Shown here: one piece after another, positions 61,939 through 64,000 of the stretch | Position numbering within the stretch: the first letter of the stretch is position 1 | Layout: each line of letters starts with the position of its first letter | Source of the DNA: Parabacteroides distasonis ATCC 8503 | Lineage (GTDB): Bacteria > Bacteroidota > Bacteroidia > Bacteroidales > Tannerellaceae | DNA: 64,000 nucleotides | Assembly: GCF_000012845.1 (NCBI RefSeq) | Contig: NC_009615.1 | Location: 2,199,501 to 2,263,500, forward strand | Direction: 5' to 3' | The notes under the pieces: generated by a model | What the model was told of the DNA's origin: nothing | The model's input: only the letters and a program-made list of their open reading frames with translations | The model's database searches: none | Translations under genes and position numbers: made by a program

Positions 61939-62229
61939 ATGGCATCTGACAACAAAATAATCGAATTGATCAAACAAGGAGATATAGCCGCCTTTAATAC
62001 CCTGTTCAAGTCTGTTTATCTCCAACTTTATATACATTGCCGAAAATTTATCCCCGCCCCGGAAGACGCAAAAGACATCTTACAAAACGTCTTCCTCCGC
62101 TTTTGGGAAAAGCGTGAGAACATCGATATTCACACGTCTTTAAACGCTTATTTATACAGGGCTATACAGAACGAATGCCTCAATTACCTTCGTTCTACCG
62201 GAACTCCCTATCTGATTAGCCATAATTAA
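61939..62229 (+). CDS. ECF sigma factor, N-terminal half (cut by DNA inversion)
   Basis: This 96-aa ORF encodes the sigma-2 region of an ECF sigma-70 factor: QGDIAAFNTLFKSVYLQLYI, then PEDAKDILQNVFLRFWEKRE for core and -10 binding, and YLYRAIQNECLNYLR. It lacks sigma-4. The real coding sequence breaks off in the 13-bp repeat at 62192-62204; the last seven residues here (PYLISHN) come from the flipped DNA. If the segment 62205-63587 is reversed, the frame continues into the ORF at 63299-63587 and gives a complete 184-aa sigma factor. In this orientation the product should be inactive. Confidence 0.92.
   Translation: MASDNKIIELIKQGDIAAFNTLFKSVYLQLYIHCRKFIPAPEDAKDILQNVFLRFWEKRENIDIHTSLNAYLYRAIQNECLNYLRSTGTPYLISHN
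62192..62204. repeat. Inversion site, left copy (GTTCTACCGGAAC)
   Basis: This 13-bp sequence is the exact reverse complement of 63588-63600. It has its own dyad, GTTC-N5-GAAC, as expected for a recombinase crossover site, and lies in the sigma coding frame (codons for S-T-G-T). Confidence 0.92.
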
Positions 62230-62346
62230 TAAATTTAAGATTAATAATAAGATCTAACAATGTTACGTTTTTTATCCGTATTACACTAAAAATCATCCAT
62301 TTCTCATAAGCAAGACTGTTTTTAAGATTAATAATTCAATGATTTA

Positions 62347-63216
62347 TTATTTGATTACTATAGTATCTTTCAGTATTTGATAGCGAATACCCGTATTCGT
62401 CTTTATCACATTGAGAATCTCCGATAAATCTTCGTTGTTACGGAAACTACCGCTAAACCTTAATTTTTTTATCCCTTGATTTTCATAACGAAATACAACG
62501 TTATAGTTCCTTTCCAACAACTTTGTTATATCTTGCAGATACATCATTTTAAAAGACAAGAAACCTCCTCTCCATTGAGCGAATAGTTTCTTATCGTAAG
62601 GTACTACTTCTATCTTATTTCTACTTTTATCATAAACCGCCACTTGGTTAGGCTCAAGTAAGACCTCTTGTTTAGTCAACGTAGGTTGTACGGCGACCTT
62701 GCCATTGAACAAGGTTGTGGTTAGTTGCGAGTCTTCCATATAAGCGGAAACATTAAAGGCCGTACCAATCGCTTTCACATCAATACCGTTTGCCTTTACA
62801 ACAAATGGTAAGTCTTTATTCTTTGCGACTTCAAAATAAGCTTCTCCATCCAAATAAATGCTACGATTGGAATGGCCGTAGTTCTCCGCATATTCTAGAG
62901 TTGTACAAGAGTTAAGCCAAACCCTCGTACCATCCGGTAATTGCAAATAGCTCTTCTCTCCTTTGCTCGTTACTAATTTATAATTTCCAACTGTCGATAA
63001 GTTCTCTTGATTCGTAAGATACAACGTTGATAGTGAAACACCTATGCCCAAAACCACGGCAGCGGCATATTTCATGTATTGAAGGAATAGCCTTCTTGTT
63101 TTCATTTTGGAAATAGTTTTTTTCTCTATGGATGAAAACAAACGCTCCCACTCCCTATCAACATCTACTTCGTCTTTGAGACTTTCCGCAATTATATTTT
63201 TTATATATTCTTTCAT
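62347..63216 (-). CDS. FecR family anti-sigma factor
   Basis: The 289-aa protein has a short cytoplasmic anti-sigma part (residues 1-45), one membrane helix (about 48-66) and a periplasmic FecR domain (YLQLPDGTRVWLNSCTTLEY, then GEAYFEVAKNKDLPFVV), ending with a DUF4974-type domain (LRFSGSFRNNEDLSEILNVI) that resembles an STN domain. It senses the partner SusC/TonB receptor and holds or activates the ECF sigma. It is intact, but in this orientation it is detached from the sigma promoter and lies antisense to transcription from 61939. Confidence 0.93.
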   Translation of the reverse strand: MKEYIKNIIAESLKDEVDVDREWERLFSSIEKKTISKMKTRRLFLQYMKYAAAVVLGIGVSLSTLYLTNQENLSTVGNYKLVTSKGEKSYLQLPDGTRVWLNSCTTLEYAENYGHSNRSIYLDGEAYFEVAKNKDLPFVVKANGIDVKAIGTAFNVSAYMEDSQLTTTLFNGKVAVQPTLTKQEVLLEPNQVAVYDKSRNKIEVVPYDKKLFAQWRGGFLSFKMMYLQDITKLLERNYNVVFRYENQGIKKLRFSGSFRNNEDLSEILNVIKTNTGIRYQILKDTIVIK

Positions 63217-63298
63217 TGTTTTTTCTCGATTCTATATGTATGACACTTCAAAACGATGTGCTACTTACAAGATTGATAGATTTTTGTATTATATTTTT

Positions 63299-63587
63299 TC
63301 AAGAAACCAGATAATCTTTCAATCTACTTTTCAAAATCTTAAGGGCTCTATATATCTGTGTTTCCACTGTACGGACGGAGATATCCAATTTATCTGCGAT
63401 CTCTTGGTTCTTGAGTCCATTTATACGACTCAATTTAAAAATGGATTTACATTGATCTGGTAATTCCTCTATCGTATTTTCCGTGATTCGTTCTATTTCA
63501 AAAATACTAAGTATCGAATAAGGATCATTATCTTCCACAGCCTCTTGTTTATCCATCTCTGATATTTCATATCGGGGAATGTCAATG
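63299..63587 (-). pseudogene. ECF sigma factor, C-terminal half (sigma-4), detached
   Basis: This frame (an internal ATG at 63556 gives 85 aa) encodes IEELPDQCKSIFKLSRINGL and NQEIADKLDISVRTVETQIY, the sigma-4 helix-turn-helix for the -35 element. It is the missing half of the gene beginning at 61939: reading from the repeat, the codons T-I-D-I-P-R-Y-E-I-S-E lead without interruption into the ATG at 63556. It is 82 nt upstream of fecR on the same strand. Confidence 0.9.
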
Positions 63588-63600
63588 GTTCCGGTAGAAC
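63588..63600. repeat. Inversion site, right copy (GTTCCGGTAGAAC)
   Basis: Inverted copy of 62192-62204. It lies in the susC coding frame (codons S-S-G-R-T once joined to the flipped DNA). Confidence 0.92.
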
Positions 63601-64000
63601 TAATTACAGAACCCTGAAAAAATCATTATTTTTAGGTTTGTGCTTAACCTTTTTCCAGCCGTACACAGTAGCGGCATCAGCACAAATTATATCCTTAAAT
63701 ATCACAAAAGGAACTATCACTGAAGTTTTTAAGGCGATTGAAGACCAAAGTGAATATAAATTCTTTTATAATGACAATCAAATCAATTTGAATAAACGGG
63801 TTGATGTCAATATCCATGAAGAATCCATAGAACAAGTATTAAACAATGTCTTTAGAGGTACGGATATTACGTATAAGATCGTCAAGAATCACGTAGTACT
63901 TACCAACAAGACCATGAAAGATACGGAGTTGCCATCCACCAACCAAAATCGCAAACGGCTAACCGGACAAGTAGTAGGACAAGATGGGGAGCCTCTGATC
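63588..64000 (+). CDS. SusC-type TonB-dependent receptor, 5' end cut by inversion, 3' end outside window
   Basis: The frame encodes a signal peptide (TLKKSLFLGLCLTFF, ending AASA-Q), an STN domain (LNITKGTITEVFKAIEDQSE, then EESIEQVLNNVFRGT) and the beginning of a carboxypeptidase-regulatory-like domain (LTGQVVGQDGEPL). STN-bearing receptors signal to FecR. In this orientation there is no start codon: an in-frame TGA lies at 63560-63562 and no ATG follows before the signal peptide. In the flipped state the frame would begin with ATG at the segment end (62223 on the minus strand), adding MANQIGS. Confidence 0.9.

Follow-up and report, generated by a model that had tools for sequence, protein, structure and literature searches.

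Cell-surface signalling systems of the FecI/FecR/FecA type are encoded in clusters that are normally fixed. Intragenic invertons, in which the repeats lie within coding sequence and inversion recodes or truncates genes, have reportedly been described by Chanin et al. in 2024 and by Milman et al. in 2023. For gut Bacteroidales, the available parts of the literature on DNA inversion describe promoters that are flipped and surface-protein and other genes that are swapped. According to the accessible portion of one report, the Bacteroides fragilis invertase Tsr0667 underlies SusC/SusD phase variation and has many distant sites (PMC4747536). Invertible capsule promoters with the site GCTACTYRGNRAGTAGC are described for Parabacteroides distasonis in the part of a second source that was at hand (PMC12118408), and Carasso et al. 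(2024), as far as the accessible sections go, reported invertible regions, including intragenic ones, in genes ranging from regulatory to surface functions, with P. distasonis among the genomes. A sigma factor gene that is split in two and made whole again by site-specific recombination is, by the excerpt available, known from the sigK/skin systems of Bacillus subtilis and Clostridium difficile (PMC4191935).

In P. distasonis ATCC 8503, the window (the whole 64,000-nucleotide stretch of DNA that was analysed) contains two halves of an ECF sigma factor gene that face each other. The N-terminal half, comprising region 2, is a 96-aa ORF at 61939..62229 on the + strand (PF04542, 6.4e-13) that ends in the tail STGTPYLISHN, while the C-terminal half, comprising region 4, lies at 63299..63589 on the - strand (PF08281, 4.7e-16), with 96 codons open up to a 13-bp repeat. 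Between them, entirely within the segment bounded by the repeats, lies fecR (62347..63216, - strand), encoding a 289-aa anti-sigma factor (PF04773, 1.4e-16; PF16344, 8.8e-20). This layout had been proposed in a sequence-only reading of the same DNA, and the ORF list and Pfam profiles agree with it, as they do with the proposed breakpoints: the left site, GTTCTACCGGAAC, occupies 62192..62204 (+) within the sigma codons R-S-T-G-T, its inverted partner occupies 63588..63600 (-) within the susC leader codons S-S-G-R-T, and both copies, each of them intragenic, sit exactly where the genes are broken. The putative invertible segment (62205..63587, in what we call the OFF orientation as sequenced) measures 1383 bp between the repeats and 1409 bp with both included, and its gene content is fecR and part of sigma only, with no recombinase on it. 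When 62192-63600 was inverted in silico, the halves joined into one sigma ORF of 184 aa, the length that the earlier reading had given. The joined protein scored 166.7 bits against TIGR02985 (cut-off 126.4), compared with 78.9 and 84.7 for the halves, both below the cut-off; against the broader TIGR02937 (cut-off 42.9), each half passed alone, with 44.7 and 50.9. The resulting ON order, with sigma regions 2 and 4, the FecR domains and a receptor carrying an STN domain, has the make-up of an ECF sigma/FecR/SusC signalling cluster.

The receptor gene is the second gene broken by the segment. The body of susC, encoding a TonB-linked receptor with STN, plug and barrel domains by Pfam and a match to TIGR04056, begins at 63601 on the + strand and runs past the end of the window at 64000 to genome position 2266539. 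Its ATG (62221..62223, - strand), followed by the leader MANQIGSSGRTN..., is stranded within the segment and faces away from it, and the fecR-susC intergenic stretch (62224..62346, - strand), which carries a TAATCTTAA block found in all eight of the aligned loci, is likewise detached; this stretch would hold the susC promoter and ribosome-binding region. As sequenced, the susC frame contains no ATG, and the first ATG, GTG or TTG codon is a TTG at 63638, within the signal peptide. Upon inversion in silico, the sequence reads ATG GCT AAT CAG ATA GGG A-GTTCCGGTAGAAC, that is, MANQIGSSGRTN... in frame with the receptor, and a 1156-aa SusC is restored, including its start codon, leader and upstream region. 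A leader of the same kind (MANH.GSSG...) occupies the same place in five relatives without matching sites. The sequence-only reading had held that the switch acts on the regulator and turns a whole receptor system ON or OFF. This is supported as far as it goes and falls short in that a single flip not only cuts sigma and reverses fecR but also parts susC from its start codon and upstream region.

Exact copies of GTTCTACCGGAAC occur only twice in the 4,811,379-bp genome, at the two breakpoints. A 13-bp inverted repeat by itself, however, is common in the window and proves little: the window contains seven maximal inverted pairs that are 13 bp or longer and lie within 3 kb, and 30 simulated windows averaged 3.0 such pairs and never had more than 5. 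The case therefore rests on the gene breakpoints, on comparisons with other genomes and on the family of sites to which the repeat belongs.

We searched 38 genomes of the genus with the joined sigma factor. Matches with E values up to 1e-20 were obtained in 33, mostly below 45% identity, and we examined the 10 loci whose identity was at least 56%, ATCC 8503 itself (G000) included. The OFF arrangement with both sites was present in 2 of the 10, G000 and G004 (matched to P. distasonis NM39_I3), so that the two assemblies examined for P. distasonis agree in being OFF; in G004, the sites are identical to those of G000 and inversion in silico again restores both ORFs. G023 (matched to the MAG Parabacteroides sp. 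STD2_99) is ON and has both sites, GTTCTACCAGAAC/GTTCTGGTAGAAC. The site core is TACCG in G000 and G004 and TACCA in both G023 copies, the same single base being changed in each. G035, a MAG-type record, has the ON order with the left site only and no susC match, and past fecR it runs into the end of a susD gene; its sigma and fecR (L035) are intact and, barring an assembly fault, the locus appears to be locked. Five of the 10 loci (L037-L041), all more distant, have sigma, fecR and susC collinear and lack matching sites, although in L040 and L041 the GTTC/GAAC arms are already present in the susC leader. The remaining locus, L042, gave no tblastn match to fecR or susC within 18 kb. On the simplest reading of these comparisons, an ordinary fixed cluster would have acquired the matching sites within the P. 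distasonis lineage. A search for viral contigs found none for the relatives or for either junction. The earlier reading had suggested comparison with strains in which the three genes are collinear and had regarded a single orientation everywhere as an argument against a switch; collinear genes were found in G023 and the five more distant loci, and ON and OFF both exist across strains and lineages. Elsewhere in the genome, a lone sigma region-2 frame of 85 aa without a region-4 partner among the Pfam matches was noted (L043 4282-4539, genome 3246281-3246538; hit at 3246329). No tblastn match to parts of the split sigma/fecR/susC system was found at L043, and the inverted repeats nearby are 11-12 bp long, with none at the end of the frame; it may be a truncated gene or another kind of rearrangement.

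Both states are also represented among database proteins. P0003 (ON) and P0057 (OFF) are identical over their first 106 residues and part exactly at the repeat, beyond which P0003 continues as TIEVPQ..., the intact sigma, and P0057 as TPYQISHN, an OFF tail. In another lineage, P0008 (ON) and P0192 (OFF) share 84 of 91 residues up to the site. OFF N-terminal halves of the P. distasonis type form clusters represented by P0186 (236 members) and P0187 (442 members), which carry the same OFF tail as ATCC 8503, and the largest ON cluster, P0001, has 142, these sizes being member counts at 90% identity and not frequencies. P0001 is 93% identical to the 184-aa joined sigma, and its longest contig is as long as that of G035, which has lost susC. 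The ON state of P. distasonis in the strict sense is represented by P0027 only, which has the exact ON junction of the ATCC 8503 locus over 113 residues; upstream of that junction, its contig seems to be chimeric. One lineage contains SusC proteins that include the leader (P0121, P0122) as well as others called from an internal methionine (P0135-P0151); judging from the start codons chosen by the gene caller, the latter would correspond to the OFF state. In P0059 (174 aa), the reading frame passes from the sigma N-terminal half straight into the susC leader, with the join lying exactly at the site, which probably reflects a deletion between the two quasi-palindromic sites.

Selection on the genes was assessed as dN/dS in pairs drawn from G000, G004, G023 and G035. 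Values were 0.05-0.09 for the N-terminal half (six pairs) and 0.05-0.22 for the C-terminal half in five of six pairs, with the sixth pair saturated and one of these five close to saturation. For fecR, they were 0.08-0.35 (three pairs, without G004), and for susC 0.05-0.07 in two of three pairs, the third being saturated. The G004 fecR frame begins MKKYI. Between the two OFF genomes, G000 and G004, dN/dS was 0.05 for the N-terminal and 0.22 for the C-terminal half. Both halves of sigma are thus under purifying selection rather than decaying, and the accumulation of mutations in both, named beforehand as a sign against a working switch, was not seen between these genomes. The proportion of synonymous differences (pS) between G000 and G004 is 0.09 for the sigma N-terminal half, 0.33 for the C-terminal half and 0.65 for susC; this unevenness along the locus suggests allele replacement.

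The 13-bp site has the form GTTC-N5-GAAC. This motif occurs at 119 places in the genome, compared with 207 for the reversed control, and is thus rarer than the control; the raw count therefore gives no support, and matched pairs alone do. At least five matched inverted pairs with identical cores were found, including the one at the split sigma/susC locus (genome 2261692/2263088), a lower bound in that cores ending in C or T on both strands were incompletely covered beyond 2.96 Mb. At least four pairs are separated by less than 2 kb, where a simple estimate predicts about 0.006. With the reversed-control motif, no matched pair was present in the loci examined, which were partly chosen for having pairs, or among the matches listed (100 of 132). 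All five of the pairs found adjoin susC genes (TIGR04056), with common arms and different cores, which points to one invertase that prefers SusC loci. Two of them, 244344/244578 (L044 4345-4591, 234 bp apart) and 3020468/3020962 (L121 6468-6976, 494 bp apart), lie upstream of susC and are probably promoter invertons. The GTTCATACAGAAC pair at 589446/589997 (L045 5447-6010, genome 589446-590009) is 551 bp apart, between divergent susC genes, and looks like a SusC/SusD switch. There, the two susC 5' ends are nearly identical, a recombinase lies 5 kb off, and the pair is conserved in G004 (L160). The fifth pair, 1902141/1912559 (L165 3142-13572, genome 1902141-1912571), is 10.4 kb apart, with identity extending past 13 bp; its sites flank two susC/susD-like operons that face each other, and thereby enclose two susC genes and their downstream neighbours. 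Possibly, a large inversion chooses here which receptor operon meets an outside promoter. In G002 (L164 13103-15099), three GTTCTATCAGAAC-type sites, one of them inverted relative to the other two, lie around repeated susC 5' ends, approximately 5 kb from a recombinase homologue.

No recombinase was found near the switch itself, the closest Pfam matches being a tyrosine recombinase about 243 kb and a serine recombinase about 110 kb away. A candidate invertase is a 392-aa tyrosine recombinase (genome 583390-584565) with arm-binding, SAM-like and catalytic domains, which sits within the SusC/SusD cluster holding the 589-kb pair and has homologues (E up to 1e-50) in 26 of the 38 genomes of the genus. 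We regard it as a lead and not as proof. Matched GTTC pairs lie near the homologue in two of five neighbourhoods (G004 and G002), with none in G023, G017 or G008. G023 carries the switch yet has no pair near its homologue, which breaks a simple co-location rule. G035, with one site only, has no homologue in a genome that is only 83% complete. The tyrosine recombinase ORFs of about 310 aa, which adjoin GCTACT...AGTAGC repeats at L122-L128 and L131 and repeats of other kinds at L129 and L130, were set aside. At L132, a capsule-type GCTACT...AGTAGC pair surrounds two ORFs that resemble transposases (551 and 251 aa, labelled by eye), and ORFs of the same lengths and starts are present at L134.

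Taken together, we consider it highly probable that a reversible, site-specific intragenic inversion controls this ECF sigma/FecR/SusC system, with cells of one strain presumably switching orientation. In the ON state, sigma, fecR and susC would stand in line, with sigma whole and susC provided with its start codon and upstream region; sigma and FecR would be expressed from the sigma promoter, and sigma would drive susC once the receptor signals through its STN domain. In the OFF state, as in ATCC 8503, inversion between the GTTC-N5-GAAC sites would have cut sigma between regions 2 and 4, turned fecR round and left susC without its start, and such cells would make a 96-aa sigma-2 fragment at most, with neither a whole sigma factor nor a normal receptor until the segment flips back. 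Most likely, a recombinase would act in trans on both sites, presumably a tyrosine recombinase encoded elsewhere. A different reading of the OFF state would make it a second coding state, in which the 96-aa sigma-2 protein, its tail being antisense to the susC leader, replaces the activator by a decoy that binds the RNA polymerase core or FecR, and would have the switch arise by coding changes alone, as a stretch of sigma codons came to match the conserved susC leader, which was already there and usable by a SusC invertase; we think this combination unlikely.

Could the inversion be real and yet the product of rare homologous or replication-slippage events at the 13-bp repeat, with no dedicated recombinase? 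The shortness of the repeat and the lack of a recombinase nearby speak for such an origin, but the same arms recur with different cores in four more matched pairs, all at susC genes, and the motif is found again in the G002 SusC cluster near a recombinase, which makes it rather improbable. It is harder still to see the locus as a pseudogene relic of a one-time ancestral inversion, the ON strains keeping the ancestral order. Although both P. distasonis assemblies being OFF would fit a relic, the halves have stayed in frame with low dN/dS in these very strains, P0003 and P0057 do not differ before the site, OFF tails are present in several lineages, and the two G023 sites carry the same change, so that we hold a relic to be very unlikely. 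An assembly artefact of the reference genome, which the sequence-only reading had named as a danger, has next to no probability, given that the G004 assembly has the same arrangement and that the OFF tail recurs in the 236- and 442-member clusters.

Compared with the systems described above, a reversible inversion at this locus would unplug regulator and receptor together, with little scope for a leaky intermediate. The sigma-fecR-susC order is kept in relatives that lack matching sites, and the location of the sites in two coding sequences therefore suggests how a switch can evolve within an ordinary cluster of this kind. Gene callers will record such loci as truncated sigma factors and as SusC proteins with odd start codons. 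As far as the consulted parts of the sources go, intragenic inversions, SusC phase variation, P. distasonis capsule invertons and a split sigK are already known. In the portions of the DNA-inversion literature covered by our search, no sigma factor gene split by inversion was found, and the published inverton surveys may list the locus. The Tsr0667 cases, to judge from the available text, resemble the present one in that DNA is inverted at susC-type receptor genes; they shuffle receptor genes or flip promoters, whereas here the regulator's own frame is cut. With sigK/skin, again by the excerpt cited above, the locus has in common that sigma halves are rejoined by site-specific recombination (here in silico). 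However, skin brings its own recombinase and is lost by excision in a terminal cell, whereas the 62192-63600 segment would be inverted, carries fecR and is not an excised element bearing a recombinase. The capsule invertons, in the part of that study that was accessible, come from the same species and likewise have palindrome-armed inverted repeats, but their site sequence is different, their repeats are intergenic, and a recombinase ORF of about 310 aa adjoins them in eight of the loci fetched. The intragenic invertons attributed to Chanin (2024) and Milman (2023) reportedly have their repeats in coding sequence as well, while here two linked genes, sigma and receptor, are broken at once. Finally, as in FecI/FecR/FecA, an ECF sigma factor, a FecR anti-sigma factor and an STN receptor belong to one cluster; in ATCC 8503, in contrast, that cluster is physically dismantled.
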